Shown here: piece after piece, positions 12,028-29,164 of the stretch
Layout: the number at the start of each line of letters is the position of its first letter
Position numbering within the stretch: the first letter of the stretch is position 1
NCBI RefSeq assembly: GCF_001545155.1
Contig: NZ_CP014226.1
Span: 3,909,652-3,973,651, forward strand
Direction of reading: 5' to 3'
Length of the DNA stretch: 64,000 bases
Origin: Halomonas chromatireducens
Lineage (GTDB): Bacteria > Pseudomonadota > Gammaproteobacteria > Pseudomonadales > Halomonadaceae
Position numbers and translations under genes: made by a program
Notes under the pieces: model-generated
Seen by the model: the letters and a program-made list of their open reading frames with translations, nothing else
Database searches by the model: none
Told to the model about the DNA's origin: nothing

Positions 12028-12564
12028 GGGCAATCCCTCGGTGGATGGAACGAACACGCCCGGGCCGGTCGATCAGGTCGACATGCCGGACGCAGTGATG
12101 GTGCTGTGGGGGGGCCAGGCCCAAAGGCGGCTTGAGGCTGATCAGCGCTCAGGCATTAGCGCAGAGACAAGCAGGCTGACGCCAGGCGTGGCGCAGCCTC
12201 GGGTGCTATCGATCAGGCACGGCAAGACGATGCCGTCAGTCAGGCATTACCCCGCAGCGGCGAGGTCGGGGGGCGGGCGGCGCGGCATGCACCGTCCTTC
12301 ATCGGCGTAGTGGCGCGACATGGATTCCTTCTCTATCGATGGCGTCGACGACGTACAGTCGAGAGTACCGGTGATCCAGTCTGCATGTAGGCAAGACCAG
12401 GGTGTCCCATGGCGGGACCTGTCAGGGATCGGTTATCAGTATTATTGCCTGATCCAAGGGTCGTATACCCTACTGATCTATCCTGAAAAAGTCCAATCGG
12501 TGCCGAATCGGCGGAAAATTGCGTCTAGTTGCGCCGAAATGTCGGCTGCGATCCCGCTGCGGGC
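12028..12564. other. Intergenic region between dctM and the symporter
   Basis: About 540 bases without a convincing gene. Short frames lack ribosome sites and family features. It must contain the symporter promoter and the end of the dctPQM transcript. A short CCGATTCGG palindrome near 12505-12515, followed on the minus strand by CTTTTTCAGG, might be part of the dctM terminator, but the stem is weak. Confidence 0.4.
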
Positions 12565-13878
12565 TCAGTTGATCATTCCAGGAAGCCAGGTGGCGATGGC
12601 CGGGAAGGCGATCAGCAGGGCGACCAGCAGCATCGAGCAGAGGATATAGGGAATCGCCGCGGCGTAGATCTCGCGCATGGTGGTGCCCTTGGGGGCCACC
12701 CCCTTCATCACGAACAGCAGCAGCCCAAGCGGTGGCGTCGAGAAGCTGATCTCCAGGGCCAGCAGCACGATGATGCCGAACCAGATCGGATCGAAGCCCA
12801 GCACCTGCGCCAGCGGGAAGAAGAACGGCACCGTCAGCATCATGATGGAGATCTGCTCCATGAAGGTGCCGAGTACCAGCAGCACGGCGAACATCGCCAG
12901 CAGCATCAGGATGGGTGCCAGGTCGAAGCTGGTGGCCCACTGGATCAGTCCGCTGGAGGCGCCGGAGAAGGCCAGCAGCTGGCTGAAGGTGGCGGAGCCG
13001 AAAACGATCAGGTAGGCCATCAGCGTGACCTTCAGTGCCCCGGTGACCGATAGCTTGAACGCCTCCCAGGTCATGCAGCGGAAGACGAAGGCCAGCACCA
13101 TGGCGCCCAGGGCTCCGAACGCAGCCGCCTCGGAAGGGGTGGCGAAGCCCATCAGCATCAGCGCCACGATCAGCACCATCACGCTGATCATCGGCACGAT
13201 GTCGGTGAGAATCAGCATCAGCTTCTGCTTGAGGGGAACCGGCTCCAGTTCGTAGTTGGGGGCGGCAGAGGGGTCGATCCGGGTGTGGATCCAGATGGTG
13301 GCGATATAGAGACAGGCCAGCACCAGGCCCGGCAGAATGCCGGCGATAAGCAGGGCGCCGATGTCGATCTTGGCCAGGGTGGCCAGCAGTACCGCCAGCG
13401 CCGAGGGTGGAATGATGATGGCCAGGCCGCCGGTGCCCAGGATCGGGCCGATGGCCATGTGCTTCTTGTAGCCGCGGCGCTCCATCTCGGGCACCAGCAG
13501 CGAGCCCATCAGCGCCGTGGACCCCATGGAGGAGCCACTCAGGGTCGAGAACCCGGTACCCCCCACGACGGTGACATAGGATAGCCGGCCAGGCACCTTG
13601 CCCATCAGCTGGTCGATGGCATTGAACATCTTCATGCCCATGCCGGTGCGGAAGAACAGTTCGCCCATCAGCAGAAACAGCGGGATCGGCACCAGGTTGA
13701 AGCTTGACAGGGCGCCGAAGCCGTTGTTCAGCATTTGGATGATGCCGTTCTGTCCGCCCATGAAGTACCAGGCGCCGATGACGTTGGCGGCCAGGAACGC
13801 CAGCGCAATGGGCGTACCGATGGCCATGAAGCCGAGGATCAGGGCCAGGAGAAAGGCCAGGGCCAGATACCATTCCAT
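12565..13878 (-). CDS. dctM: TRAP transporter large permease DctM
   Basis: The large (12-helix) membrane subunit of a tripartite ATP-independent periplasmic transporter, catalysing sodium-driven carboxylate uptake. The start at 13878 (MEWYLALAFLLAL) overlaps the dctQ stop by one base (TAATG); 437 residues is normal. DctM signatures include GTPIALAFLAANVIGAWYF near the N-terminus, NLVPIPLFLLMGELFFRTGMG (about 58-78), and the VVGGTGFSTLSGSSMGSTALMGSLLVPEM motif (about 105-133) with the IIIPPSALAVLLA hairpin following. It is the last gene of gntR-leuCD-dctPQM. The cargo is probably the substrate of the adjacent catabolic genes. Confidence 0.95.
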   Translation of the reverse strand: MEWYLALAFLLALILGFMAIGTPIALAFLAANVIGAWYFMGGQNGIIQMLNNGFGALSSFNLVPIPLFLLMGELFFRTGMGMKMFNAIDQLMGKVPGRLSYVTVVGGTGFSTLSGSSMGSTALMGSLLVPEMERRGYKKHMAIGPILGTGGLAIIIPPSALAVLLATLAKIDIGALLIAGILPGLVLACLYIATIWIHTRIDPSAAPNYELEPVPLKQKLMLILTDIVPMISVMVLIVALMLMGFATPSEAAAFGALGAMVLAFVFRCMTWEAFKLSVTGALKVTLMAYLIVFGSATFSQLLAFSGASSGLIQWATSFDLAPILMLLAMFAVLLVLGTFMEQISIMMLTVPFFFPLAQVLGFDPIWFGIIVLLALEISFSTPPLGLLLFVMKGVAPKGTTMREIYAAAIPYILCSMLLVALLIAFPAIATWLPGMIN

Positions 13879-14384
13879 TATTCTTTTATCCCCGCTTCGC
13901 CGCTGTGAAGAATGTCTCGACCCACCACGAAGCGGGCGAATTCGATGGCCATGAGAGAGAAACAGACCGGGTAGGCGATGGTGAGGATCCACTTCGGTAC
14001 GAAGAAGGCGCGCACGTCATAGTCGCTGCGCTGGAGGTTCAGCATCACCAGGTCATAGCCCTTCCAGGCCAATACCACGCAGACCGTCACGCAGAGCAGG
14101 GCGACCAGCCGGCTCAATACCTGCAGGGCCAGCGGTGGCAGGATCGAGGTGAGCAGTTCGATATGCACGTGCCCCTTGTGCCTGACCAGCCAGGGCGCAC
14201 CCAGCAGGGTCAGATAGAACATGGCGTACTCGGTGGAGAGGAAGAACCAGGCAGAGGGCTGCAGGCCCAGGTTGCGGATCACCACGGAGAGCACGATGGC
14301 GACCATCAGCCACACCAGCATGATGGCGGCCAGCAGGGCCATGCCGTTGAGCAGCAGAAGATAGGCGCGGGTTGCGTATCGCAT
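13878..14384 (-). CDS. dctQ: TRAP transporter small permease DctQ
   Basis: The four-helix small subunit that supports DctM and docks the binding protein. The 168-residue protein has helices at about 8-38 (LLLLNGMALLAAIMLVWLMVAIVLSVVIRN), 48-66, 85-108 and 130-155. It carries the family's W/F-rich turn and RHKGHVHIELL motif (about residues 68-78), highly typical of DctQ. A strong hairpin separates it from dctP, a usual arrangement that lets the binding protein be made in excess. Confidence 0.93.
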   Translation of the reverse strand: MRYATRAYLLLLNGMALLAAIMLVWLMVAIVLSVVIRNLGLQPSAWFFLSTEYAMFYLTLLGAPWLVRHKGHVHIELLTSILPPLALQVLSRLVALLCVTVCVVLAWKGYDLVMLNLQRSDYDVRAFFVPKWILTIAYPVCFSLMAIEFARFVVGRDILHSGEAGIKE

Positions 14385-14430
14385 AGCGTCATCCAGGGCC
14401 CGGCAGCGAGCCAGGCGGGAACAGGAAGGA

Positions 14431-14455
14431 GAGCCGGCCGCCTGGCGGCCGGCTC
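14431..14455 (-). promoter_or_regulatory. Intercistronic hairpin between dctP and dctQ
   Basis: A perfect 12-base inverted repeat (GAGCCGGCCGCC / GGCGGCCGGCTC) around a single T lies just after the dctP stop. No T-run follows, so it is more likely a 3'-end-stabilising or partial-termination element that lowers dctQM relative to dctP. Confidence 0.6.
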
Positions 14456-14463
14456 GTCATGCT

Positions 14464-15465
14464 TCAGAGGTCGTTGAACTTCTCGATCAGCTCGTCATAG
14501 TGCTCGAGGCCCATGGGGTGACGTTCCATCTGGCGACGCATGCGCTCCCAGGTGGCTTCACGGGCTGCTTCTGAAAAGCGCTCGCCGGCTTCGCCTTCCA
14601 GGCGGAAGACCTGCATGCCGTCGGCTTCCAGCTCTTCGAGCTGCTCCGTTGCCAGCACCTCGAAACGCTCTGCGCTTGCGCGCTCATGTTCGATGGCCAC
14701 TTCCTGGAGGATCTCGCGAGCCTCTTCGCTCAGAGCGTTCCAGCTATCCAGGTTGAGGATGACGCCCATGTCGGTGGAGAAGAAATCGGGGTCGATCCGG
14801 TAGTTCAGGAAGCGATCCCAGTTGAGGTCCTTGAGGCCGATCTGGGTCCAGCCGGTGGCGTTGACCACGTTGCGCTCCAGCGCCGAGTAGACGTCGGTGG
14901 TGGGCAGGCTGATCGGCTGTGCGCCCAGGTAGTCCTGGAAGAAGGCGTCGTAGACCGGGTTGCTGCGCAGCGTCATTCCCGAGACGCTCAGGTTGCCGTC
15001 GTCGTCCAGGCGGGGCTCGTTGATCGTGTAGAGGTTGTAGCTGACACCGCTGTCGAACCAGCCCAGGTAATAGGTGCCCATCTTTTCCTGGTGTATCTCG
15101 TTGAGCAGGTCGATGCCGCCGTTCTCGCGGGCATGGATGGCGTTGGTGTTCGAGGCGACCATGGCATCGCGCTCCGGTACGGTGCCGGCGTAGAAGCTGG
15201 CCGCGGTATAGGCCATGTCGACCACACCGTTGCGGACCGCGTCGGGCTGCTCCGATAGGCCGATGACCTCGGGGCCGCCACGTACATCGATCTGTACCAC
15301 GCCTTCACCGCGCTCGTTCACCTTGTCCACGAACTCGAGGAAGCTCTGGGTATAGATCAGTGAGGGAGGGAAGGCATGGACTGCGCTGATGCGATCCACG
15401 GCCGCTGCGTGGGTGGAGGCGAGCAGGGTCGCTACGCCAAGGGTGGCCAGTAGTTGCTTGTTCAT
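14464..15465 (-). CDS. dctP: TRAP transporter substrate-binding protein DctP
   Basis: The periplasmic carboxylate-binding subunit, 333 residues. It starts at an ATG with CGAGGAG upstream and has a short signal peptide ending THAAA (about residue 22). The DctP fold shows as an N-terminal AVHAFPPSLIYTQSFLEFVDKVNE segment, VQIDVRGGPEVIGLSEQPDAVRNGVVDMAY (about 58-87), and the central MTLRSNPVYDAFFQDYLGAQPISLP segment near 165-190. That segment carries the conserved arginine (in MTLRSN) that usually binds the substrate's carboxylate. A VNATGWTQIGLKDLNW stretch follows. Placement behind a hydratase pair and a regulator suggests an organic acid or acid-amide cargo. Confidence 0.94.
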   Translation of the reverse strand: MNKQLLATLGVATLLASTHAAAVDRISAVHAFPPSLIYTQSFLEFVDKVNERGEGVVQIDVRGGPEVIGLSEQPDAVRNGVVDMAYTAASFYAGTVPERDAMVASNTNAIHARENGGIDLLNEIHQEKMGTYYLGWFDSGVSYNLYTINEPRLDDDGNLSVSGMTLRSNPVYDAFFQDYLGAQPISLPTTDVYSALERNVVNATGWTQIGLKDLNWDRFLNYRIDPDFFSTDMGVILNLDSWNALSEEAREILQEVAIEHERASAERFEVLATEQLEELEADGMQVFRLEGEAGERFSEAAREATWERMRRQMERHPMGLEHYDELIEKFNDL

Positions 15466-15560
15466 CGTTTTTCTCCTCGATGGGATGGTACGGATGTTGC
15501 CGATTGTTGTTGGAGGCTTGCATCACGCAGTGCATGCACAAGCCGGGCAAGGGCCTGGTA

Positions 15561-16199
15561 TCACCCTCTGGAAATGATCGTGGCGTCGCCTGGCGGTGTC
15601 TCGAGCCAGGGGTGTCGGCGCGCATAGTCGGCCGCGAATCGGGCGATCTTCGCCTGGTGCTGCCGGGTCATGTCGATGTCGTCCCAGCCGTTCAGCAGCT
15701 TGGTGCGCCAGCTGGGAGCGATCTCGAACTTCAGGTCGAGCGTACCGGCACGGACGCGGCACTCATCCAGGTCTACCCGCACCGGCCCGGGCTCACTGCC
15801 CAGGTGGGCAAGCAGGCGCTCGATATAGGTCTCTGGCAGCGTGGCCGGAAGCAGACCGTTGTTGACCGCATTGGACGAAAAGATGTCACCGAAGCTCGGG
15901 GCGATCACGCAGCGAAAGCCATGGTCCACCAAGGCGTAGACAGCGGCTTCACGGCTTGAACCGCCACCGAAGTTGCGTCGTGCCACGAGGATCTGGGCCT
16001 GCTCGGCCTTCGGATGATTGAGGATGAAGCCCGGACGGGGGCTGCCACGCTCATCGTAGCGCAGGTCATGCAGCAGGAACTGGCCGTAGCCGATGCTGCG
16101 CGGCTCCTTCATGAAGCGCGCCGGGATCAACTGGTCGGTATCCACGCTGGCCAGGGCCAGCGGACAGGCCAGGGTGTCCAGAATCTTGATGGGTGTCAT
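15561..16199 (-). CDS. leuD: Aconitase-family hydratase small subunit (LeuD-like)
   Basis: The swivel-domain subunit of an isopropylmalate isomerase-like hydratase. The 212-residue protein has the N-terminal ASVDTDQLIPARFMK motif (about residues 18-32), QILVARRNFGGGSSREAAVYAL (about 68-89, the substrate-recognition loop) and APSFGDIFSSNAVNNGLLP (about 99-117). It is translated 13 bases after the LeuC-like subunit. There is no leuB or leuA nearby, whereas a regulator, TRAP importer and lyase are. I therefore infer a catabolic role: hydration of a maleate-, citraconate- or dimethylmaleate-type diacid. True leucine synthesis cannot be excluded from sequence alone. Confidence 0.85.
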   Translation of the reverse strand: MTPIKILDTLACPLALASVDTDQLIPARFMKEPRSIGYGQFLLHDLRYDERGSPRPGFILNHPKAEQAQILVARRNFGGGSSREAAVYALVDHGFRCVIAPSFGDIFSSNAVNNGLLPATLPETYIERLLAHLGSEPGPVRVDLDECRVRAGTLDLKFEIAPSWRTKLLNGWDDIDMTRQHQAKIARFAADYARRHPWLETPPGDATIISRG

Positions 16200-16212
16200 C
16201 TCAGTCCTCCCG

Positions 16213-17610
16213 TTACAGCGCGCGGATGTCGGCCAGATGGCCGGCCACGGCAGCGGCAGCCACCATGGCCGGCGACATCAGGTGGGTTCTGGCCCCAGGC
16301 CCCTGGCGACCCTTGAAGTTGCGGTTGGTGGTCGAGGCACACCTTTCGCCGCTGGGCACCAGGTCACCGTTCATGGCCACGCACATGGAGCAGCCCGACT
16401 CCCTCCACTCCAGTCCCGCCTCCCGGAAGACGGTGTCCAGCCCCTCGGCTTCCGCCTGCTTCTTCACCTGGGTGGAGCCGGGAGAGACGATGCCGGGCAC
16501 GCGGCTACGCCGACCTTGCAGCACCTCGGCTGCGGCGCGCAGGTCCTCGATGCGGGCGTTGGTGCAGGAGCCGATGAAGATCCGGTCGATGGCGATATCG
16601 GTCAGCTTCTGGCCGGGGGTGAGACCCATGTAGTCGAGGCTGTCGCGCATCTGGCGTGCCTTGCCCTCGTCGTGCTGGGTTGCGGGATCCGGCACGCAGC
16701 TGTCGATGGGCAGGGCTTCTTCCGGGGATACGCCCCAGGTCACGGTGGGAACGATCTCGGCGGCGTCCAGGGTGATGTCGCGGTCGAAGCGGGCCCCGTC
16801 ATCGCTCTTCAAGGTCTGCCAATGGCGGATGGCCTGTTCCAGTCGTTCTCCTTCCGGCGCCCAGGGGCGGCCCTCGAGATAAGCGAAGCTGGTGTCGTCC
16901 GGGGCGATCATGCCGCAGCGGGCGCCGCCCTCGATGGAGAGGTTGCACAGGGTCAGCCGTGCCTCCATGGAGAGTCCGCGGATGGCGCTGCCGGCATATT
17001 CGATGGCGTGGCCACGGGCGCCGTCGGCGCCCAGGCGAGCGATCCAGGTCAGGGCGATGTCCTTGGCGGTAATGCCGGGGGCCAGGGTGCCCTCCACGGT
17101 CAGGCGCATCTGCCTGGGGCGGCTCTGCCACAGGGTCTGGGTGGCAAGTACATGGGCCACCTCCGAGGCACCGATGCCGAAGGCAACGCTGCCGAAGGCG
17201 CCGTGGGTGGACGTGTGACTGTCGCCGCAGACCATCAGCAGCCCGGGCTGAGTCAGGCCCTGCTCGGGCCCCAGCACATGGACGATGCCCTGGCGGGGGT
17301 CGTCCAGGCCGAACAGGGTGATGGCATGTTCACGGGTGTTGTCTGCCAACTGTTCGATCATGCCGCGGACCTTGGCATCGTCGATGTCGTCGAGGCGGCG
17401 GGTCAGGGTCGGCACGTAGTGATCGGCGATACCGAAAGTAAGGTCGGCCCGCGCCACGGGCAGGCCTCGCTCGCGCAGCTTGTTGAAGGCGTGGAAGGAG
17501 CCCTCATGCACGAAGTGACGGTCGATCCACAGCAGGCTCTCGCCGCTTTCGCTGCGATGGATCTCGTGGGCGTCCCACACCTTGTCGAACAGTGTCGTTG
17601 GCATTGTCAT
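16213..17610 (-). CDS. leuC: Aconitase-family hydratase large subunit (LeuC-like)
   Basis: The catalytic, 4Fe-4S-binding subunit of a LeuCD-type hydratase, 465 residues. Three cluster cysteines are visible: one in FIGSCTNARIEDL and two in WRESGCSMCVAMNGD. The VCGDSHTSTHGAFGSVAFGIGASE motif (near 145-168) is canonical. The N-terminus reads DRHFVHEGSFHAFNKLRERG and LTFGIADHYVPT. This differs from the usual LeuC HEVTSPQAF and DHN forms, hinting at a paralogue with another substrate. It lies between the GntR gene and the TRAP importer, on the same strand. The ribosome site before 17610 is weak; a second ATG two codons in is possible. Confidence 0.88.
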   Translation of the reverse strand: MTMPTTLFDKVWDAHEIHRSESGESLLWIDRHFVHEGSFHAFNKLRERGLPVARADLTFGIADHYVPTLTRRLDDIDDAKVRGMIEQLADNTREHAITLFGLDDPRQGIVHVLGPEQGLTQPGLLMVCGDSHTSTHGAFGSVAFGIGASEVAHVLATQTLWQSRPRQMRLTVEGTLAPGITAKDIALTWIARLGADGARGHAIEYAGSAIRGLSMEARLTLCNLSIEGGARCGMIAPDDTSFAYLEGRPWAPEGERLEQAIRHWQTLKSDDGARFDRDITLDAAEIVPTVTWGVSPEEALPIDSCVPDPATQHDEGKARQMRDSLDYMGLTPGQKLTDIAIDRIFIGSCTNARIEDLRAAAEVLQGRRSRVPGIVSPGSTQVKKQAEAEGLDTVFREAGLEWRESGCSMCVAMNGDLVPSGERCASTTNRNFKGRQGPGARTHLMSPAMVAAAAVAGHLADIRAL

Positions 17611-17757
17611 GACGGTTCGTTTTACCGAGGTTGTGTTATTTTCATCCCGCTATACTCATACAACTATCCCAGACCGCCGCACAGGTCAAATGTATTTTAT
17701 TTCCTTTTTTATATGTATTAAAAATAGAACAGCCTTGGTGCCGTGTCACTCTGCGTC
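17611..17757 (-). promoter_or_regulatory. AT-rich control region between gntR and leuC
   Basis: This 147-base gap is markedly AT-rich compared with its surroundings. It holds ATGTATT at 17690-17696 and ATGTATTA at 17713-17720. The same ATGTATTA occurs at 18643-18650 in front of the divergent operon. The shared octamer is a candidate GntR operator element; no single -10/-35 pair stands out. Confidence 0.4.
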
Positions 17758-18573
17758 TCACGCTTCCTGATGTTCGGGCTTCGCCCGCTGGGGCTCCGAC
17801 GACATCGGCTCCCAGTATCGAGCGGCTTCATCGCCGGTACGGTTCAGATCGATCTGGATGCGGTAACGGTCGGGGCGGTATAGCGCGTCGAGATGCTCCA
17901 CGCCGCGCCCCTCCTCGTCGTAAACCACCCGGGTCAGAGCGATCAGCGGTGAGCCCACCGATACATCGAGCGCCTCAGCCACCTCATGGGTGGCCAGTGT
18001 TGCCGAGATGGTCTGCGCGGCGTGATCGACCTTCACACCGCTGCGCTCGAGCAGAGCGAAAAGCGGTGTCTGCGAAAGGTCAGCCTCGTTGTAGTGCAGG
18101 GCGATGTATTCCGGGACGTGGGTCACCAGGTAGGAGAATGGCTTGTCATCGGCCATGCGCACGCGAATCGAACGCTGCACGCGCTCCCCCTCGCGGAGGC
18201 CCAGGCCCTCCCGCACCGGCTCCGGCGGCTTGACGTAGCAGAACTCCAGCAGGCGCACCCGCGAGGCCTTGCTCATCTTGACCATGTTGGGCATCAGGTT
18301 GGCGACGCTGGCAGTCATGACGGTGGCGTCCAGAGGCTGCTCCAGCACAACGGTGCCGAGCCCCGGCTTGCGTGCCACCAGCCCCGCCTCGTTGAGTGCC
18401 TGCATGGCGCGCCTGACAGTGACCCGCGATACGCCGTACTGATCGGCCAGCTTCAGCTCGCCGGGGAGCTTTCGCCCCGGGGCCAGTCGACCGCTGAGAA
18501 TCGCATCCTTGAGCAGCAGATAGATGCGATGGGACTTGGTGCCCCCGACGGAATTCGCATGCGTATCGTTCAT
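17758..18573 (-). CDS. GntR-family transcriptional regulator (HutC/UTRA type)
   Basis: A DNA-binding regulator with an N-terminal winged helix and C-terminal UTRA effector domain. The start at 18573 (MNDTHANSVGG) has AAGGA upstream; the frame extends further without support. The product is 271 residues. The GntR helix-turn-helix covers about residues 15-80, with SGRLAPGRKLPGELKLADQYGVSRVTVRRAMQALNEAGLV; UTRA occupies about 100-255. It sits at the pivot between the leuCD-dctPQM genes and the divergent amidase/lyase operon, so it most likely controls both in response to the pathway substrate or an intermediate. HutC-type members often bind small carboxylates or imidazole acids. Confidence 0.9.
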   Translation of the reverse strand: MNDTHANSVGGTKSHRIYLLLKDAILSGRLAPGRKLPGELKLADQYGVSRVTVRRAMQALNEAGLVARKPGLGTVVLEQPLDATVMTASVANLMPNMVKMSKASRVRLLEFCYVKPPEPVREGLGLREGERVQRSIRVRMADDKPFSYLVTHVPEYIALHYNEADLSQTPLFALLERSGVKVDHAAQTISATLATHEVAEALDVSVGSPLIALTRVVYDEEGRGVEHLDALYRPDRYRIQIDLNRTGDEAARYWEPMSSEPQRAKPEHQEA

Positions 18574-18728
18574 GGTTGGGTCCTTGTCGTTGTTGCCGGT
18601 CTGTATGAAGAGCTTGACGCGAGGCATTGGGTAGACATAGAAATGTATTATGCATAGGACAGGTTGCTGTGCCATGCAATATGAAGAATAGCGCCAAACA
18701 ACGATAAAGGCTTCCTTGGAGAACACCC

Positions 18729-19304
18729 ATGCCCGTCATTCAGGTCAGTCTGATCCGAGGCTACTCCGGCGAATTGAAACAGCGCCTGTGCGCTCGGCTT
18801 ACCGATGCCGTGCGCCACAGCATTGCCGCTGACCCTGAAGGCATCACCGTGCTGGTGCATGAAGTGGAGCCCGATGCCTACATGCGAGGCGGTCGCCAGC
18901 GCATGCCGGGAGCGGAAGGTAAGGACGGCAAGCCCGGCATGAGCCCCGAGCAAGTGGTGCGCGCCTTTCTCTCGGCCATGGAGGCTCGTGATCTCGGTGC
19001 TGCCAAGACCCTGCTCGACGATGAGTTCGTCATGACGTTCCCCGGCAGCGGCGAGATGCATCGTCTCGAAGAACTGGTGGCCTGGGCCGGCGGCCGCTAC
19101 CGCTTCGTGCGCAAGTGCATTGCAGCAGTGGAAACCTGTGGCGATGGCGATGAGACGACGGTGTTCTGTCACGGCGAACTCAGCGGTGAGTGGCCCGACG
19201 GTACCCCCTTCTCCGGCGTGCGCTTCATCGACCGCTTCGAACTGCGCCGCGGCAGGATCGTTCGCCAGCAGGTCTGGAACGACCTGGCGCTGGCACGGCC
19301 CTGA
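18729..19304 (+). CDS. Tautomerase-SnoaL fusion protein
   Basis: A 191-residue two-domain protein, first gene of the rightward catabolic operon. Residues 2 to about 68 resemble 4-oxalocrotonate tautomerase: Pro2 becomes the N-terminal catalytic base after Met removal (MPVIQVSLIRGYS), then LCARLTDAVRHSIAADPEGITVLVHEVEPD. From about residue 78 onward a SnoaL/NTF2-like domain follows (VVRAFLSAMEARDLGAAKTLLDDEFVMTFPG, then FIDRFELRRGRIVRQQVWND). SnoaL folds often isomerise or hydrate small rings. The fusion suggests one protein handling an enol/keto intermediate. A good ribosome site is not obvious. The family assignment is from motif; the substrate is unknown. Confidence 0.8.
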   Translation: MPVIQVSLIRGYSGELKQRLCARLTDAVRHSIAADPEGITVLVHEVEPDAYMRGGRQRMPGAEGKDGKPGMSPEQVVRAFLSAMEARDLGAAKTLLDDEFVMTFPGSGEMHRLEELVAWAGGRYRFVRKCIAAVETCGDGDETTVFCHGELSGEWPDGTPFSGVRFIDRFELRRGRIVRQQVWNDLALARP

Positions 19305-19360
19305 AGTGGCCCTTTCGTTTCCCTTTTCGATTTCATGAACATTCGAGGAATTCTCTTGCC

Positions 19361-20245
19361 ATGACTCTTCACGCCAGTGACCTCAAGGCCAGGCTGAGCG
19401 ATCCGGGGATCGTCGTCGCCCCGGGTGTCTACGACGCCTTGAGCGCTTCGCTTGCCGCCGATGCCGGATTCGACACTGTCTATCTTTCCGGGGCCAGCAT
19501 TGCCTATACCCAGCTCGGCCGTCCCGACATCGGCCTGGTCAGCGTGAGCGAGGTCAACGACGTGATGTCTCACATCCGTGAGCGCACCGAGCTGTCGGTG
19601 GTGGTCGATTGCGACACCGGCTTCGGCAATGCCATGAACGTGATGCGCAGCGTGCGCATGCTGGAGCGATCCGGTGCCAATGCGATACAGCTGGAAGACC
19701 AGACCTATCCCAAGCGTTGCGGCCATCTGCGTGGCAAGACCCTGGTGTCCGAGGGCGAGATGGTGGGTAAGCTCAAGGCGGCAATGGATGCCCGTGAAAG
19801 TGACTCGACCCTGATCATCGGCCGCACCGATGCGGTGGCGGTGGAGGGTACGGCGCGGGCCATTGAGCGAGCCCATGCCTACCGCGAGGCCGGGATCGAC
19901 GTGCTGTTCATCGAGGGTATCCGCAGCGACGAAGACATCGCCAGCATCATGGCCGAGTTTCGCGGCAAGATTCCGATCATGGCCAACATGGTGGAGGGGG
20001 GCGACACGCCGTTGCAGAACGCCCAGGCGCTCCAGCAGCTAGGCTTTTCGCTGGTGATCTTCCCCGGTGCCCTGGTACGCGCCTTCACCCACATGGCGAG
20101 CCAGTTTTTCACCACCCTGCGCCGTGACGGTACCACCGACGCCTTTCGCGAGCGCATGCTCGACTTCGGACAGCTCAACGAGGTGCTCGGCACCCGAAAG
20201 ATGCTCGAGCTGGGCGAGAAGTACGACGGCCGAAGAGAACAATGA
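19361..20245 (+). CDS. Isocitrate lyase/PEP mutase-family C-C lyase
   Basis: An alpha/beta-barrel lyase of 294 residues that likely splits a 2-hydroxy- or 2-oxo-diacid. The start at 19361 (MTLHASDL) has GAGGAA upstream; an earlier in-frame start overlaps the previous gene and lacks support. The magnesium-site aspartates lie in VVDCDTGFG (Asp83, Asp85). The lyase signature KRCGH (residues 118-122, Cys120) is kept, as in methylisocitrate and 2,3-dimethylmalate lyases and unlike PEP mutase. YLSGAS at 41-46 is also typical. Beside a LeuCD-type hydratase, the closest known pairing is dimethylmaleate hydratase with dimethylmalate lyase in anaerobic nicotinate breakdown; here, (methyl)malate cleavage to pyruvate plus a short acid is inferred. 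Oxaloacetate decarboxylase-like activity is the alternative. Confidence 0.88.
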   Translation: MTLHASDLKARLSDPGIVVAPGVYDALSASLAADAGFDTVYLSGASIAYTQLGRPDIGLVSVSEVNDVMSHIRERTELSVVVDCDTGFGNAMNVMRSVRMLERSGANAIQLEDQTYPKRCGHLRGKTLVSEGEMVGKLKAAMDARESDSTLIIGRTDAVAVEGTARAIERAHAYREAGIDVLFIEGIRSDEDIASIMAEFRGKIPIMANMVEGGDTPLQNAQALQQLGFSLVIFPGALVRAFTHMASQFFTTLRRDGTTDAFRERMLDFGQLNEVLGTRKMLELGEKYDGRREQ

Positions 20246-20267
20246 CCGATCCTTCAGGAGAGAGCGC

Positions 20268-20942
20268 ATGATTACCACCGACAAGACCGCCAAGGAGATC
20301 TTCTTCGAGGTGATGGCCAACCCCCAGCGCGTGCCGTTCGGTTTCGGTAACAAGGCGGTGCTGGTCAACGTCGACCCGCAGAAGGCCTATACCCGAACCG
20401 ACCTGTTCAAGACCGCCTACGAGACCGACCCCAACCAGCTCGACTACGTCAACCAGCTGGCCCGCTCGTTCCGACAGCTCGGCTGGCCGGTAGTCTGGAC
20501 CCACGTGGCGTTCCTCGACTCCGCAGAAGACGCCGGCGTATGGGGCACACGGACCGATACCCCCGACTCGTTGCAGAACATCAAGTACGGCTCTGAGCGT
20601 GCCGAATTCGATGAGCGGGTGGAGATCGACCCACACGATGTCGTCTACACCAAGCGCATGCCCTCGGCCTTCTTCGAGACCCCGCTGCAGTCGCTGCTGG
20701 TATGGCATCAGGTCGATACCGTGATCGTTACCGGCGGCTCCACCTCCGGCTGTATCCGTGCCACCGCGGTGGATAGCCTCTCCCGTGGCTACCGTACCGT
20801 CGTGCCCATGGAGTGCGTTGCCGACAAGCACGAGAGCTACCACTACGCCAACCTGACCGACCTGCATCTCAAGTACGCCGATGTCATGCCGGTGGCCGAG
20901 GTGCTGAGCTGGCTCGAAGCTCGTGCTGCCGAGCAGGGCTGA
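20268..20942 (+). CDS. Isochorismatase/N-carbamoylsarcosine amidase-like hydrolase
   Basis: A cysteine amidase of the isochorismatase superfamily, 224 residues. The start at 20268 (MITTDKTAKE) has CAGGAG upstream. The Asp-Lys-Cys triad is intact: Asp36 in VLVNVDPQKAY, Lys129 in VVYTKRMPSAF and Cys162 in GGSTSGCIRATAVDS. The CIRATA and DPQKAY sequences resemble N-carbamoylsarcosine amidohydrolase and maleamate amidase (NicF) more than true isochorismatases. In this operon it most plausibly hydrolyses a half-amide (maleamate type) or an N-carbamoyl compound, releasing ammonia. The cis-peptide GGS(T) loop before the cysteine helix is visible. Confidence 0.88.
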   Translation: MITTDKTAKEIFFEVMANPQRVPFGFGNKAVLVNVDPQKAYTRTDLFKTAYETDPNQLDYVNQLARSFRQLGWPVVWTHVAFLDSAEDAGVWGTRTDTPDSLQNIKYGSERAEFDERVEIDPHDVVYTKRMPSAFFETPLQSLLVWHQVDTVIVTGGSTSGCIRATAVDSLSRGYRTVVPMECVADKHESYHYANLTDLHLKYADVMPVAEVLSWLEARAAEQG

Positions 20943-20976
20943 GCGTCTCGGCGAGAGTGGAAGAGGAGTGTGCAAC

Positions 20977-21927
20977 ATGAAGGAAACGCTTGGTGCCTAT
21001 GACTACTGGCCCTACGAGAATCGCCCGAAGATCACCTGGCCGGGCGGGGCGCGGGTCGCCTTCTGGGTGGCACCCAATATCGAGTACTACGAGCTCGACC
21101 CGCCCCAGAATCCGCAGCGCAAGCCATGGCCGACGCCCCACCCCTCGGTGCCTGGCTACAGCATTCGCGATTATGGCAACCGAGTGGGCCACCAGCGCCA
21201 GATGGCCCTGCTCGACAAGTACGGCATTCGCGGCTCGGTGTCGCTGTCGGTGGCGCTCTGCGAACACCATCCCGAGATCATCGAGATGTGCCGTGAGCGC
21301 GACTGGGAGTTCTTCAGCCACGGCATCTACAACACCCGCTACACCTATGGCATGGGTGAGGCCCAGGAGCGGGAGATGATTCGCGACAGCCTCGAGGCGA
21401 TCCACCGCCACACCGGGCAGAAGTGTGCGGGCTACCTGGCCCCGGCGCTCTCCCATTCGGAGCGGACCCTGGACCTGTTCGCCGAGGAGGGCCAGGCGCT
21501 GTTCGGCGACGAGGCGGGCTTCTATACCTGTGACCTGTTCCACGATGACCAGCCCACGCCGATCCGGCTGCGCTCGGGCCGCCGCTTCGTCTCCATGCCC
21601 TATTCGCTGGAGATGAACGACACCATCGTCTACGCCGTGAACAAGGTGGAGCCACGCCATTACCTGACCATGCTCAAGCGCCACTTCGACCGGCTCTATG
21701 CCGAAGGCGCCGAATCGGGCACGGTGATGTGCATTCCCACCCACAACTACCAGGTCAGCTGCCCGCATCGAATCAAGGCCTTCGAGGAGGCGCTGGAGTA
21801 CATCACCGGCCACAGCGACGTCTGGCTCGCCCCCGGCCGCGTGATCGCCAGCCACTATCTTGCCCACCACTACGACGATGCCCTGCGCGACATCGACGCC
21901 AGGGCCATCCCCGCCAGGAGGCGCTGA
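20977..21927 (+). CDS. Polysaccharide deacetylase-fold hydrolase, PuuE-like (copy 1)
   Basis: A 316-residue cytoplasmic protein (no signal peptide) of the NodB-fold branch that includes PuuE allantoinase and cyclic-imide/amide hydrolases. The start at 20977 follows AGAGGAG. Landmarks: ITWPGGARVAFWVAPNIEYYELDPP (about 18-42), SIRDYGNRVGHQRQMALLDKYGIRGS (about 60-85), FFSHGIYNTRYTYGM (about 111-125) and CIPTHNYQVSCPHRIKAFEEAL near the C-terminus. The acidic residues in NIEYYELD and the histidine in SHG are in the positions expected for metal ligands. The absence of export signals and the operon partners argue against cell-wall chitin or peptidoglycan as substrate; ring opening of a cyclic imide or ureide is the better guess. 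Confidence 0.85.
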   Translation: MKETLGAYDYWPYENRPKITWPGGARVAFWVAPNIEYYELDPPQNPQRKPWPTPHPSVPGYSIRDYGNRVGHQRQMALLDKYGIRGSVSLSVALCEHHPEIIEMCRERDWEFFSHGIYNTRYTYGMGEAQEREMIRDSLEAIHRHTGQKCAGYLAPALSHSERTLDLFAEEGQALFGDEAGFYTCDLFHDDQPTPIRLRSGRRFVSMPYSLEMNDTIVYAVNKVEPRHYLTMLKRHFDRLYAEGAESGTVMCIPTHNYQVSCPHRIKAFEEALEYITGHSDVWLAPGRVIASHYLAHHYDDALRDIDARAIPARRR

Positions 21928-21930
21928 GCC

Positions 21931-22884
21931 ATGTCCTCGAAAAGTTCGTCTCTCGACAAGGATTACCTGACCTATCCCTGGCGCCGACACGGCTACGATC
22001 ATGACCGCTACGACTGGTCGATGCTGGCACAGCGGCCCCCGGTCCAATGGCCTGGCGGCAAGACCCTGGCGGTCTGGATCAACGTGTCGCTGCAGTTCTA
22101 CCCGCTCAACCAGCGTGGGGTACCCTTCAAGGTGCCCAACGGCATGACCATGCCCTATCCCGACCTGCGCCACTACTCGCTGCGCGACTACGGCAACCGG
22201 GTGGGTATCTACCGCATGCTGGCGGCCTTCGAGAAGCATGGCATCCGTCCCACCTGGGCGATCAATGCCCAGCTTGCCGAGCAGACACCCTACCTGGTGG
22301 AGCGTCTCAAGGCATACGGCGGCGAGTTCCTCTGCCACGGCTGGAACATGGACCATCTGCACTATGGCGGGCAGGATCGCGACGAGGAGGCCGAGATCGT
22401 ACGCCGCTCGGTAGAGACGCTGCGCGAGCAGATCGGACAGCCCATTCGCGGCTGGCTCAGCCCGGCTCGCTCGCAGAGCTGGCACACGCCGGAGCTGCTG
22501 GCAGAGAACGGCATCGCCTACTGCGCCGACTGGGTCAACGACGATATGCCCTACGCCTTCGCCACGGACAACGGGCCGCTGGCCATGATGCCCCTGTCGA
22601 CCGAGATCGAGGATCAGTTCGTGATGTGCCAGAACCTCCATTCGGAAGACGCCTGGGTCGAGCAGGTCAAGGATGCCTTCGACTTTCTCCTGCAGGAGTC
22701 GAGGGAGCAAGGGGGACGGATGCTGGCGCTCAGCCTGCATCCCTGGCTGGTGGGTCAACCCCACCGTATCGCCTGCCTGGAGGAGGTGCTGGCCCATATC
22801 GCCGGCCATGACGAAGTCTGGCAGGCACCGGCCGGCGAGATACTCGACGCCTTCCAGGGCGCTGGCCAAGAGGAGGCGCGCTGA
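21931..22884 (+). CDS. Polysaccharide deacetylase-fold hydrolase, PuuE-like (copy 2)
   Basis: A 317-residue paralogue of the preceding gene, starting three bases after its stop. Shared landmarks are VQWPGGKTLAVWINVSLQFYPL (about 36-57), YSLRDYGNRVGIYRMLAAFEKHGIRPT (about 80-106), FLCHGWNMDHLHYGG (about 131-145) and LSLHPWLVGQPHRIACLEEVL near the end. The segment aligned with copy 1's NIEYYELD reads NVSLQFYPL and lacks acidic residues. The metal site may therefore be altered, while CHGWNMDH adds a histidine. Two tandem, unequal copies suggest a heteromeric enzyme or two successive ring or amide hydrolyses. The stop overlaps the next ATG (TGATG). Confidence 0.85.
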   Translation: MSSKSSSLDKDYLTYPWRRHGYDHDRYDWSMLAQRPPVQWPGGKTLAVWINVSLQFYPLNQRGVPFKVPNGMTMPYPDLRHYSLRDYGNRVGIYRMLAAFEKHGIRPTWAINAQLAEQTPYLVERLKAYGGEFLCHGWNMDHLHYGGQDRDEEAEIVRRSVETLREQIGQPIRGWLSPARSQSWHTPELLAENGIAYCADWVNDDMPYAFATDNGPLAMMPLSTEIEDQFVMCQNLHSEDAWVEQVKDAFDFLLQESREQGGRMLALSLHPWLVGQPHRIACLEEVLAHIAGHDEVWQAPAGEILDAFQGAGQEEAR

Positions 22885-24296
22885 TGGGCATCGTGGCCTT
22901 CCATGACGCTGATACCTTCGAGGTGTCCCTGCCGCTGCTGATCGTCGGCGCGGGAGCCTGCGGCCTGGTGGCGGCACTGGCGGCCCGGGAGTGTGGCATC
23001 GAGCTGGCGGTGCTCGAGCGCGATGCATTGCCGCGGGGCAGCACCTTCATGTCTTCCGGCTTCATACCCGCCGCCGGCACCCGCTTTCAGGCCGACAAGG
23101 GGGTAGACGACAGCCCCGAGCTGATGGCGAAAGATATCCAGGCGAAGAACGGTGATGAGGCTGACCCGGCCATCGTCCAGACGCTGGCCGGATACTCCGG
23201 TCGAGTGGTGGAGTGGCTGGCCGATACCCATGGCGTGCCGTTCGACCTGGTCGACGGCTTTCTTTATCCCGGACATAGCCGCATGCGGATGCATGCCACG
23301 CCGCGGCGAACCGGTGAGGAACTGATGGGGAGCTTGCTGACCGCTGCCGAGACGGCGGGTATCGATATCCTGACCCAGGCCCGGGTGGTCGATCTGCATG
23401 TCGACGAGGCTCGACGGGTGCGCGGTGTCACCCTCGAGCGCCCCGATGGGAGTCAGGAGCGCATTGGCTGCGAGGCTATGATCCTGGCCTGCAACGGCTA
23501 CGGCGGCAACCCGGAACTGGTGGCGCGCTACCTGCCCACCTTGAAAAATGCTCTCTACTACGGCCACGAAGGGAACCAGGGTGATGCCCTTCTCTGGGGC
23601 GAGGCCATGGGAGCCAGCCTGAAGGATCTGGGAGCCTGCCAGGGGCATGGCTCCCTGGCCACGCCACATCAGACATTGATCAGTTGGGCGTTGATGATGC
23701 GCGGAGGCATCCAGGTCAACCTTGAAGGACGGCGCTTCTCCAGCGAGCACGGTGGCTATTCGGAGCAGGCGGCCAAGGTGCTGGCTCAGCCGGGCCGTGT
23801 GGCCTGGAACCTGTTCGATGCGCGTATCCATCATGCAGCGCTCGAGTTCGAGGACTACCGCAACGCGCATATTGCCGGGGCAGTGCGCACCTTCGCGACG
23901 CTGGAGTCGATGGCGAAGGGGCTGGATCTGCCACTGGATGCCCTTGAACAGACCTTCGACGAAATGCGGACCCTGGCCGGGAACGGCGAGGCAGATGCCT
24001 TCGGTCGCAGCTTCTCGCCGGAGACCCTGCTAGTGCCTCCCTATTACGCCATTCGTGTAACCGGTGCGCTGTTCCATACCCAGGGAGGGCTGGAAGTCGA
24101 CACCCAGGCGCGGGTAGTGGGGCAGGAGGGCAGTATCTTTCCCAACCTGTTTGCCGCCGGCGGCGCGGCGCGGGGCGTTTCGGGCTCGAATGACAGCGGC
24201 TACCTGTCGGGCAACGGCCTGCTCAGCGCCGTGGTGATGGGGGCCATTGCCGGGCGTGAGGCGTCACGCCAGCTACGGCGGGGCGGGACGGCCTGA
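22884..24296 (+). CDS. FAD-dependent oxidoreductase, fumarate reductase flavoprotein family
   Basis: A 470-residue flavoprotein of the succinate dehydrogenase/fumarate reductase/3-ketosteroid dehydrogenase superfamily. It has an N-terminal dinucleotide fold LIVGAGACGLVAALAA (GxGxxG at residues 22-27), GSTFMSSGFIPAAGTR as the FAD-contact loop, HATPRRTGEELMGSL with a likely substrate-site region, GGNPELVARYLP, and the C-terminal GxVSGSNDSGYLSGNGLLSAVVMGAIAG FAD motif. No covalent-flavin histidine or haem domain is evident. Coupled by overlap to the previous gene, it closes the operon; likely chemistry is insertion or removal of a double bond next to a carboxylate or carbonyl. Tricarballylate dehydrogenase-type activity is another option. 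Confidence 0.87.
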   Translation: MGIVAFHDADTFEVSLPLLIVGAGACGLVAALAARECGIELAVLERDALPRGSTFMSSGFIPAAGTRFQADKGVDDSPELMAKDIQAKNGDEADPAIVQTLAGYSGRVVEWLADTHGVPFDLVDGFLYPGHSRMRMHATPRRTGEELMGSLLTAAETAGIDILTQARVVDLHVDEARRVRGVTLERPDGSQERIGCEAMILACNGYGGNPELVARYLPTLKNALYYGHEGNQGDALLWGEAMGASLKDLGACQGHGSLATPHQTLISWALMMRGGIQVNLEGRRFSSEHGGYSEQAAKVLAQPGRVAWNLFDARIHHAALEFEDYRNAHIAGAVRTFATLESMAKGLDLPLDALEQTFDEMRTLAGNGEADAFGRSFSPETLLVPPYYAIRVTGALFHTQGGLEVDTQARVVGQEGSIFPNLFAAGGAARGVSGSNDSGYLSGNGLLSAVVMGAIAGREASRQLRRGGTA

Positions 24297-24308: not shown

Positions 24309-25250
24309 TCAGGGCGCGGGCATCACCAGTTCACGCGCCTCACCCATCAGGAAGGCGTGGTTCACCTCCAGCGCTTCGCGCAGGAAGTCCCACAGCAGCC
24401 TTACCCGGGCCAGGCGGCGCTGTTCCTGGCGTGCGGTGATCCAGAAATGGCGCACGATCTCTACCTCGTCGTCCAGCACGCTGTCGAGCGTATCGCTGGT
24501 CTCGGCCATGAAGCAGGGCAGCACGGCAAGCCCGGCCCCGCTCAGCGTGGCGGCATGCTGGGTGGTCACGCTGGTGCTGCGTATCGAGAAGTGCGGCCCC
24601 GGCTGGCCCACCACGGCGGGGTCGAGCAGTGGCTCCAGGTAGCTGAGCTGCTCGCTGAAGATCAGGTCATCCACATAGCCGATCAGCCGGTGGCGGCCGA
24701 GTTCCGTGAGCCCTGCGGGTTTGCCGTGGCGGGCGAGGTAGTCACGGCTGCCGTACAGGCGCAACCGGTAATCGCAGAGCCGTGAGATCACCATGCCGGG
24801 GCTGACCGGGCGCTCGACGGTGATGGCCAGGTCCGCTTCATGGCGGCTCAGGTTGACCACCCGTGGCAGTGCCAGCAGGTCCAGGGTGATGCCGGGGTGG
24901 CGTTCGCAGAAGAGGGAGAGCAGCGGGGCGATCACCCAGGTGCCAAAGCCCTCGGTGACCCCCAGGCGAATCTGGCCGCTGAGCTGGTGGTTCTTGTCGG
25001 TAAGGTTTTCGCCGGCTTCGAAGGCGTGCCGGGCCATCTCCTCGGCGTGGGCCAGCAGCTGCTGGCCCGCTTCGGTCAGATGGTAGCCATGCGTGCTACG
25101 CTCGAAGAGCTGGGTATTGAGTTTCTGCTCGAAGCGGCGGGTGCGCCGCGACAGGGTGGAGTGGTCAAGCCCCAGGCGCCGGGCGGCGTCGGTCAGCCGT
25201 TGGCTGCGGGCCACTTCCAGAAAGATCTGTATGTCCTGCCAGTCGAGCAT
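24309..25250 (-). CDS. LysR-family transcriptional regulator
   Basis: A 313-residue LysR-type activator/repressor. The start at 25250 (MLDWQDIQIFLEV) is preceded by GGAGG; the frame continues eleven codons upstream without need. The winged helix covers about residues 1-60 (AARRLGLDHSTLSRRTRRFEQKLNTQLFERSTHGYHLTEAGQQLL), with the effector domain from about 90 (IRLGVTEGFGTWVIAPLL). It is divergent from mmsA, the classic LysR arrangement, and ends 12 bases from the convergent flavoprotein gene. It probably regulates mmsA; a role in the whole island is possible. The HSTLSRR recognition helix places it with regulators near mmsA in other gammaproteobacteria, from memory. Confidence 0.88.
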   Translation of the reverse strand: MLDWQDIQIFLEVARSQRLTDAARRLGLDHSTLSRRTRRFEQKLNTQLFERSTHGYHLTEAGQQLLAHAEEMARHAFEAGENLTDKNHQLSGQIRLGVTEGFGTWVIAPLLSLFCERHPGITLDLLALPRVVNLSRHEADLAITVERPVSPGMVISRLCDYRLRLYGSRDYLARHGKPAGLTELGRHRLIGYVDDLIFSEQLSYLEPLLDPAVVGQPGPHFSIRSTSVTTQHAATLSGAGLAVLPCFMAETSDTLDSVLDDEVEIVRHFWITARQEQRRLARVRLLWDFLREALEVNHAFLMGEARELVMPAP

Positions 25251-25474
25251 GAGGGCCTCCGGGTGCGCGGTGCGGTTGTGCATTGGCGCACAAGCAATGT
25301 GCCCGAGTGCCCGTTGTCAGGCAATCCGACCTCTGGCTAGACTCATGGCATTCCATTCCGTGTGCTAATACACACAAAGTCTAATATCTGCCTTGCCGCG
25401 ACAAGCCCATCACAACGATAAGCAGACAGTGCAGGCAGACTAGAGCCAGCAGACACAAGAGAGGAGCACGCACC

Positions 25475-29091: not shown

Positions 29092-29164
29092 GTACGAGCA
29101 TGGACAATGTGTTTACGTTGACGTTAACTGTGTCCAGTCCATAGAGTCCCAGCAGGAGTCCGCC

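Follow-up and report, generated by a model that had tools for sequence, protein, structure and literature searches.

What function is served by a gene cluster that gathers an importer, an aconitase-like hydratase, a carbon-carbon lyase, an amidase and two relatives of cyclic amide hydrolases around a single regulator? This question is raised by positions 12565-24296 of the window, by which we mean the whole 64,000-nucleotide stretch of Halomonas chromatireducens DNA that was analysed (contig positions 3909652-3973651, the end of the single 3.97-Mb contig NZ_CP014226.1), whose close relatives with names belong to Billgrantia/Halomonas. Two divergent operons flank a GntR/UTRA gene at this locus, with the order gntR-leuC-leuD-dctP-dctQ-dctM on the minus strand and tautomerase/SnoaL-lyase-amidase-puuE1-puuE2-FAD (for a flavin adenine dinucleotide protein) on the plus strand. 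An earlier sequence-only reading had proposed that these genes take a cyclic imide through a half-amide and a cis-diacid to pyruvate, and all genes that it named around the regulator are present in open frames. We propose that the locus is a GntR-controlled regulon for the uptake and use of a carboxylate-bearing cyclic imide, most likely hematinic acid, and we put the probability of this reading at about 0.47. The gene set is real and conserved, and we know of no described pathway under which it falls.

The gene set looks like one regulon, because the same palindrome occurs on either side of the GntR gene, in each of the two intergenic regions. The regulator is of the HutC type (17758-18573, minus strand; PF07702 and PF00392; start placed at MNDTHAN by inspection). 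The palindrome TGTATTA-N4-TAATACA, which carries mismatches in this genome, was located by pattern scan at 17714-17731, before the leuCD-dctPQM operon, and at 18644-18661, before the catabolic operon; both sites are operator-like, and the GntR protein would bind them. When up to three mismatches are allowed, the two sites are the sole matches in the 64 kb, where 0.02 are expected, and with up to two mismatches they are the sole matches in the whole 3.97-Mb genome; the reversed control pattern gave three matches in the genome-wide scan against two for the motif, and the informative point is where the sites lie. An intergenic site is present in 38 of the 44 loci whose GntR gene is more than 55% identical. 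Perfect sites occur in G099, G934, G1338 and G1339, two per genome and no others; by position, those of G099 and G934 are inside the cluster, and those of G1338/G1339 are within range of loci L058/L051. In the intergenic regions of the loci that we call type A, the motif matches 71 times in 20,141 bases, against 7 times in 852,900 bases elsewhere, an enrichment that is partly circular because the motif was derived from these very regions. Four of the seven outside matches belong to L177 and L182, where the cluster runs reversed. All three Marinobacter clusters possess a related palindrome (two or three mismatches) about 150-165 bases before a porin gene, and the porin is of the DcaP family in the one scanned. 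Two more sites in the Marinobacter genome G563 are distant from the cluster, and one of these has fewer mismatches.

The amidase-PuuE1-PuuE2 cassette recurs in Pseudomonadota and Bacteroidota, and it looks like a mobile accessory trait. A close PuuE1 (at least 90% identity) was found in 17 of the 90 genomes of the genus, our genome included. At an E value of 1e-90, PuuE1 is rare in the phylum (9/398 genomes, again including our own) and occurs in only one of 395 genomes of the Maribacter class, Maribacter itself. The best 120 of 4115 protein matches include Halomonas, Marinobacter, Alteromonas, Microbulbifer, Granulosicoccus, Paracoccus and Bacteroidota, at 75-86% identity. Distant PuuE1 relatives are carried on 37 plasmid records (49-61% identity among the 20 listed) of genera such as Comamonas, Burkholderia, Sphingomonas, Acidiphilium, Salipiger and Novosphingobium; an Agrobacterium group with a PuuE1 relative lacks the amidase. 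For 80 loci from named genomes, the PuuE2 cluster is present in all 80 and the amidase adjoins PuuE1 in 79, the other locus (L049) beginning inside PuuE1; the genes are thus not grouped by chance.

Co-occurrence of the gene set in other genomes, which would be required of a pathway, was indeed found. Among 105 loci, the amidase and PuuE2 are each present in 102, LeuC of any subfamily in 70, a PrpD-like protein in 9, a PrpB-family lyase in 65, a lyase resembling 3-hydroxy-3-methylglutaryl-coenzyme A (HMG-CoA) lyase at 40% identity or more in 12, a RipC/CitE-like lyase in 6, the FAD protein in 52, a tripartite ATP-independent periplasmic (TRAP) transporter in 45 and glutaryl-CoA dehydrogenase in 8. 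Taken by function, a hydratase of any kind occurs in 72 loci, a lyase of any kind in 72, and both in 62, though 23 have neither, several of these being on short contigs. Loci L083 and L112 were scored among the latter, yet they hold an HMG-CoA-lyase-like gene (cluster 13). Some of the 105 loci overlap (L183 duplicates L115, L171 is almost the same as L165, and L182 stems from G099), and the 88 loci with 6 kb on both sides were therefore also counted in groups collapsed by PuuE1 identity, with identity thresholds for presence that differ from those of the first count. The 46 groups formed at 90% identity have the amidase in 45, PuuE2 in 44, a hydratase in 27, a lyase in 28, both in 22 and glutaryl-CoA dehydrogenase in 7; for the 23 groups formed at 85%, the figures are 14 with a hydratase, 14 with a lyase, 12 with both and 4 with the dehydrogenase. 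Our own 4-Mb genome has about three LeuC-type and three lyase-type genes, and we estimate the chance presence of each in a stretch at less than 2%.

The families that fill these slots vary. LeuC belongs to several subfamilies, and the lyase can be PrpB-like, HMG-CoA-lyase-like together with a CoA transferase, or RipC/CitE-like. Flavobacteriaceae have HMG-CoA-lyase-like, DmdA/HacA-type LeuC, LeuD and CaiB genes upstream of the cassette on the same strand, and the Microbulbifer cassette has in its vicinity a third PuuE, a lyase of the RipC/CitE kind together with CaiB, a hydratase of the MaoC type and an acyl-CoA dehydrogenase. In Thalassotalea and one further genome, the cassette is adjoined by a ligase-like gene and by two genes that resemble PrpD; these names are weak, being read from the sequence (MmgE/PrpD at 23 bits, ligase cluster 236), as is that of the cytochrome-c-like cluster 53 mentioned below. 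The plasmids of Sphingomonas JE1 and Sphingobium TomTYG65 have near-identical regions and hence one origin; around one amidase and two PuuEs they have a PrpB-like lyase, a second lyase that is HMG-CoA-lyase-like and comes with CaiB, and two LeuCD pairs, a content that fits what two parallel branches would need. A second unit in our own genome, at 2654000-2670000, contains an AS-family amidase, an isochorismatase-family amidase (47% to a cassette amidase), TRAP genes, LeuCD, a KKCGH lyase, a TauD-family dioxygenase, an Fe-alcohol dehydrogenase, and GntR-like and TctA genes, and no PuuE. Two Billgrantia loci have a further lyase, an amidase-like protein and a transporter adjoining the main cluster, and these, like the second unit, fit the use of a mixture of related imides.

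The cassette itself would perform the opening of the ring and the release of ammonia. PuuE1 (20977-21927) and PuuE2 (21931-22884), both on the plus strand, have the polysaccharide deacetylase fold (PF01522) and match PuuE in the PDB, with E values of 2e-23 (PuuE1 to allantoinase 3cl6) and 1e-25 (PuuE2). Allantoinase function was rejected for both, which score 110.5 and 123.8 bits with TIGR03212, far under its cut-off of 424.6; a third, more distant homologue (29%) is encoded at 1946196 of our genome. Based on this fold relation, PuuE1 and PuuE2 are predicted to be PuuE-fold cyclic imide hydrolases, of which the accessible text of PMC9304392 records HxnM and an imidase of Pseudomonas putida YZ-26 resembling it. 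The neighbouring cysteine amidase belongs to the isochorismatase family (20268-20942, plus strand; PF00857). Its triad D36-K129-C162 is exactly as read earlier and is conserved, with Asp in 101 of 102 homologues (the other has a gap) and Lys and Cys in all 102.

The hydratase comprises a LeuC-like large subunit of the aconitase fold (16213-17610, minus strand; PF00330, 523 bits) and a LeuD-like small subunit (15561-16199, minus strand; PF00694). C349, C407 and C410 of LeuC are at the places expected for an Fe-S cluster, which they presumably hold. Both subunits pass the NCBIfam cut-offs for isopropylmalate dehydratase (TIGR00170, 657 against 560 bits; TIGR00171, 176.6 against 116 bits), and the question arises whether they simply serve leucine synthesis. 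The LeuD motif, NFGGGSSREAA in our protein, takes the form NFG(A/G)GSSREAA in all 43 type A proteins that are at least 50% identical, whereas the LeuD of this genome's leucine operon has NFGCGSSREHA. Two more LeuC-type genes are present in our genome, one of them in a leuC-leuD pair at 1.34 Mb with a leuB-like gene after it, and in 12 of 13 other cassette genomes searched two or more LeuC-type matches occur in addition to the long aconitases (gene presence only, by reading of the match list). On account of the other LeuC-type genes, a plain leucine enzyme was set aside as an explanation; it could still apply in this strain, where the leucine-group leuC seems to be 5'-truncated. In this gene, near 1339414, the usual first two dozen codons are seemingly not in frame and a stop codon lies just before it, which may reflect real damage or an assembly error; another LeuCD may thus serve leucine synthesis in this strain.

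The lyase (19361-20245, plus strand; PF13714) belongs to the isocitrate lyase/phosphoenolpyruvate (PEP) mutase superfamily, within the PEP-mutase/PrpB family. It scores 279 bits in the PrpB test (TIGR02317), under the cut-off of 354.4, and its PDB matches are methylisocitrate lyase and petal death protein. The motif for which it had been called a KRCGH-type lyase is firmly conserved, with Cys120 in 49 of 49 lyases that are at least 50% identical. Like petal death protein it has an EGG motif, and its Arg240 aligns with an Arg of PrpB that we take to bind, potentially, a third carboxylate. Arg240 is likewise present in 49 of 49 of these lyases, including those of the Burkholderia plasmid, Alkalimonas and Psychrosphaera, and it is absent from six KKCGH lyases that best match the second lyase of Sphingomonas and from the second lyase of our own genome; the motif was not found in the lyases of L169 and L170 in this residue comparison. 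Arg240 is only a hint of a third carboxylate in the substrate.

Which acid would be formed besides pyruvate is suggested by neighbour genes in relatives. An acyl-CoA dehydrogenase adjoins the cassette in Marinobacter (three loci), Alkalimonas, Thalassotalea, Psychrosphaera, Aestuariibacter and on a Burkholderia plasmid. The Thalassotalea protein matches 4w9u (named acyl-CoA dehydrogenase) with 637 bits, the Burkholderia glutaryl-CoA dehydrogenase 3eom with 618.9 bits and 1siq with 572 bits, which clearly marks it by sequence as a predicted glutaryl-CoA dehydrogenase, and the other proteins share 66-87% identity with it. A CaiB gene resembling glutarate-CoA transferase accompanies the dehydrogenase gene, in or beside the cluster, in the three Marinobacter loci, Psychrosphaera, Thalassotalea and the Burkholderia plasmid; in Alkalimonas and Aestuariibacter only the dehydrogenase was seen. 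Succinate-glutarate CoA transferase is by far the best family for the CaiB proteins of Marinobacter, Thalassotalea and the Burkholderia plantarii plasmid, at 494-542 bits (524-529 in the two Marinobacter proteins tested). In the three Marinobacter clusters, the dehydrogenase and CaiB genes have the TRAP genes on one side and, on the other, the porin gene that is preceded by the operator-like site. The conjugative B. plantarii plasmid assembles in about 14 kb the genes for CaiB, the dehydrogenase, electron transfer flavoprotein (ETF) beta, an FAD-binding protein that is probably ETF alpha, a porin, the lyase, the FAD protein, LeuD, LeuC, GntR and the cassette. Since glutaryl-CoA dehydrogenase occurs anywhere in the genome in 19 of 20 cassette genomes tested and is common in relatives too, only its location is informative. 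These neighbours suggest glutarate as the second product, which is probably not the acetate or propionate proposed earlier; the type of chemistry proposed at that time is retained, in keeping with the regulon, the recurrence across phyla and the varied lyase and hydratase families.

If a lyase of this superfamily releases pyruvate and glutarate, the compound cut would be 2-hydroxy-2-methyl-3-carboxyadipate, its dehydrated form would be 2-(2-carboxyethyl)-3-methylmaleate, and the corresponding imide would be hematinic acid; with glyoxylate as the keto product, this retrosynthesis, which we infer from the chemistry, would instead lead to the imide of homoaconitate. Hematinic acid is 3-(2-carboxyethyl)-4-methylmaleimide and arises by oxidation from those rings of chlorophyll, heme and bilins that bear a propionate. 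That it is the substrate we regard as a tentative assignment, somewhat short of even odds. The general chain from imide to half-amide, cis-diacid, hydroxydiacid and pyruvate is well supported by gene context as a prediction. In the proposed route, the TRAP transporter would import hematinic acid, a PuuE-type imidase would open the ring to the half-amide, and the cysteine amidase would convert this into ammonia and 2-(2-carboxyethyl)-3-methylmaleate. LeuCD would hydrate the diacid to the 2-hydroxy-2-methyl acid, which the PrpB-like lyase would split into pyruvate and glutarate; the glutarate would then be converted into crotonyl-CoA by a CoA transferase and glutaryl-CoA dehydrogenase. The second PuuE would probably act on a second imide, such as methyl-ethyl- or methyl-vinyl-maleimide. 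The FAD protein would probably dehydrogenate a saturated relative of the succinimide/succinate type, for example the dihydro form from a chlorin ring.

The FAD protein (22884-24296, plus strand; PF00890) belongs to the flavocytochrome c/TcuA/ketosteroid-dehydrogenase superfamily, and it had been described as fumarate-reductase-like. This holds for the fold family and not for the chemistry. Tyr292 replaces the catalytic Arg of fumarate reductase, which we take to be Arg402 of Fcc3, in all 51 FAD proteins, and the two His of flavocytochrome c are kept in the aligned protein. The protein scores 255 bits with TIGR01813 (cut-off 285) and 155.6 bits in the test for tricarballylate dehydrogenase TcuA (cut-off 369), under the cut-off in both cases. 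Fumarate reductase was rejected, and because of the Tyr in place of the catalytic Arg we expect a dehydrogenase rather than a fumarate-type reductase.

Other explanations of the locus have to be weighed against a hematinic acid regulon. The simple substrates of the sequence-only reading define a narrower chain, in which maleimide, citraconimide or dimethylmaleimide would give maleate, citraconate or dimethylmaleate, followed by LeuCD hydration and a split into pyruvate (or glyoxylate) plus acetate or propionate. The same gene set and order serve this chain, the LeuCD, lyase and amidase families fit it, and the DmdA/HacA-type LeuC subfamily in Flavobacteriaceae and on the Burkholderia plasmid speaks for it. 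However, it does not account for the fact that several genera have a glutarate-type CoA transferase and glutaryl-CoA dehydrogenase in or beside their clusters, and malate derived from maleimide itself would need no lyase; we consider it unlikely, if worth keeping in view, and retain a cyclic imide as the type of substrate, with hematinic acid as the better fit. The same glutarate genes would be accounted for directly if the substrate were a saturated imide such as glutarimide, which gives glutarate, the alternative being a substituted succinimide, for example a dicarboximide fungicide. Glutaryl-CoA dehydrogenase stands beside cassettes without LeuCD in Aestuariibacter and Thalassotalea, and the Comamonas cassette is adjoined by an acyl-CoA dehydrogenase and a ligase, but the hydratase and lyase would have no role in the 62 of 105 loci where they occur together, and we hold a saturated imide to be improbable. 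We think just as little of a ureide or hydantoin pathway, in which PuuE1 and PuuE2 would open a cyclic ureide, the cysteine hydrolase would remove the carbamoyl group, and LeuCD and the lyase would act on the derived carbon skeleton. PuuE allantoinase and N-carbamoylsarcosine amidohydrolase are among the best solved relatives, and hydantoinase/oxoprolinase genes adjoin some cassettes; yet such a pathway would yield an amino acid and not an unsaturated diacid for LeuCD, both PuuEs miss the allantoinase cut-off by far, and the third genomic PuuE could be the allantoinase. Finally, an imidase cassette for nitrogen salvage and a LeuCD-lyase unit that degrades diacids might be unrelated and mere neighbours, as the loci with neither hydratase nor lyase and the second unit of our own genome, which lacks PuuE, would allow. 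The single palindrome before both divergent operons makes this very improbable, as do a linkage that repeats with different hydratase subfamilies and lyase families and the runs of these genes on plasmids.

Several observations weigh against the hematinic acid regulon itself. Neither hydratase nor lyase is found in 13 of the 46 groups, as in the 23 loci mentioned above, and some cassettes have acyl-CoA dehydrogenase or hydantoinase-type genes instead. NicF is not the nearest characterised relative of the amidase, which matches carbamoylsarcosine amidase 26st with 101.7 bits and 3ot4/3uao, whose shared sequence we take to be NicF (maleamate amidase), with 76.3 bits (2e-20). The CaiB proteins are under their family cut-off of 750, glutaryl-CoA dehydrogenase is present in 138 of 195 relatives, 39 of the 46 groups do not have it near the cassette, and our own Halomonas encodes it at 1.50 Mb, with the cassette at 3.93 Mb. 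Arg240 also occurs in PrpB and in two KKCGH lyases (L038 and L041), whereas eight KRCGH lyases that adjoin cassettes (Microbulbifer, Halieaceae and Glaciecola) lack it, an inconsistent distribution for which it was rejected as proof of a third carboxylate. No recognisable tetrapyrrole-cleaving gene was seen near any cassette among the loci examined, and the leaf study of PMC7318184 did not detect any maleimide besides hematinic acid. The odds given above for the hematinic acid regulon were lowered because the lyase Arg is less telling and the leucine-operon leuC looks truncated.

Parts of the proposed route resemble known systems. At the end of nicotinate fermentation in Eubacterium barkeri, the dimethylmaleate hydratase DmdAB and 2,3-dimethylmalate lyase give pyruvate and a second acid, with no known imide or half-amide steps. 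The Halomonas locus shares with it the succession of a LeuCD-type hydratase and an isocitrate-lyase-superfamily lyase, and differs by its TRAP importer, imidases and amidase, and by a product that is suggested to be glutarate rather than propionate. The NicF branch of aerobic nicotinate degradation uses an isochorismatase-fold cysteine amidase on maleamate, after which maleate is isomerised to fumarate; the likeness lies in an isochorismatase-fold amidase acting on the half-amide of a cis-diacid, whereas in our proposed route the diacid would be hydrated and cleaved. PrpB, whose cleavage is pyruvate-forming, and petal death protein share with the cassette lyase the superfamily and a K(R/K)CGH motif, but the latter is under the PrpB cut-off and combines the EGG of petal death protein with the Arg aligned to that of PrpB. 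Glutarate utilisation employs a CaiB-type CoA transferase and glutaryl-CoA dehydrogenase, and of 10 loci retrieved for their glutaryl-CoA dehydrogenase genes (L146-L155), 7 have a CaiB of the same kind; the difference is that the pair is in or beside an imide cluster in some genera. HxnM and the YZ-26 imidase have the fold family and the proposed ring opening in common with our PuuEs, and HxnM is likewise followed by an amide hydrolase. According to the accessible text of PMC9304392, however, the substrate proposed for HxnM in nicotinate degradation is 3-hydroxypiperidine-2,6-dione, the amidase HxnN is unrelated, and a LeuCD or lyase step is not described there; the Halomonas cassette, moreover, has two tandem PuuE paralogues. 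Riboflavin breakdown uses other enzymes (accessible text of PMC12746152).

The remaining genes of the locus are those of the transporter and the first gene of the catabolic operon. The TRAP transporter consists of the large permease subunit DctM (12565-13878, minus strand; a homologue at 50% identity or more accounts for the 45 of 105 loci given above), the small permease subunit DctQ (13878-14384, minus strand; order conserved among type A loci) and the solute-binding protein DctP (14464-15465, minus strand; NF037995, 67.6 bits against a cut-off of 50). The nearest PDB chain to DctP is 4mnc/4mni (168 bits), from which nothing firm can be read about the ligand. The tautomerase-SnoaL fusion (18729-19304, plus strand; PF01361 and PF12680) was not found by tblastn at several type A loci. 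A LysR gene and an mmsA-like aldehyde dehydrogenase gene (methylmalonate-semialdehyde type) at 24309-26974 were considered as members of the system and rejected, both being present at high identity in just 11 of 80 loci, those of Billgrantia and near Halomonas. Directly before the TRAP genes, at 8105-12057, lie a TctA/TctB-like tripartite transporter and a sodium:solute symporter, where no operator site was seen. A GGDEF-type sensor gene at 27232-29091 adjoins a carboxymuconolactone-decarboxylase-like gene at 29078-29755, both named by reading the sequence.

Further genes are seen near cassettes elsewhere. HyuA-type hydantoinase/oxoprolinase genes, perhaps for a lactam relative of the imide, are found at L083/L112 (Emcibacteraceae/Kordiimonadaceae), L166 (Acidiphilium) and L167 (Salipiger). 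FAD oxidase-like proteins with a signal like that of twin-arginine translocation (TAT) are encoded near the cassettes of L091, L101, L102 and L086 (Alteromonadaceae and Kordiimonadaceae) and could catalyse an extracytoplasmic first step; three of these loci have a small cytochrome-c-like protein and a Crp/Fnr regulator, the signal and the cytochrome being named by reading. These oxidases were considered as tetrapyrrole-cleaving enzymes and not used, and neither was a Rieske oxygenase near some cassettes, which is of the VanA_C type and has 4-beta-methylsterol monooxygenase, under cut-off, as its best NCBIfam match. A protein of about 242 amino acids (DUF3108 in one annotated record) is encoded near the cassettes of unrelated genera (L165, 5691-6416; L098, L113, L116, L094 and L105), often with a glyoxalase-like protein of about 300 amino acids; the two copies scanned had no Pfam match.

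We know of no described bacterial route that consumes hematinic acid or maleimides, and none turned up in search listings from one open-access library, in which most subscription journals are absent. Hematinic acid has been detected in leaves, and together with maleimides it is cited from senescent leaves and lake sediments, as recorded in the accessible text of PMC7318184 and the literature cited in it; according to the same text, chlorophyll is made and degraded in amounts of the order of 10^12 kg a year. The cassette may therefore stand at the end of tetrapyrrole breakdown, a possibility that we hold with some reserve. It would then represent a patchy, phylum-crossing and partly plasmid-borne route that mineralises hematinic acid, its dihydro form and methyl-alkyl-maleimides, in which two imidases and two hydratase-lyase branches would lead to pyruvate and glutarate or a short fatty acid, and the nitrogen of the imide would be set free as ammonia. 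The oxidation of chlorophyll yields, among other products, hematinic acid and maleimides, and the gene set described here provides a candidate for each step needed, along with likely alternative enzymes.

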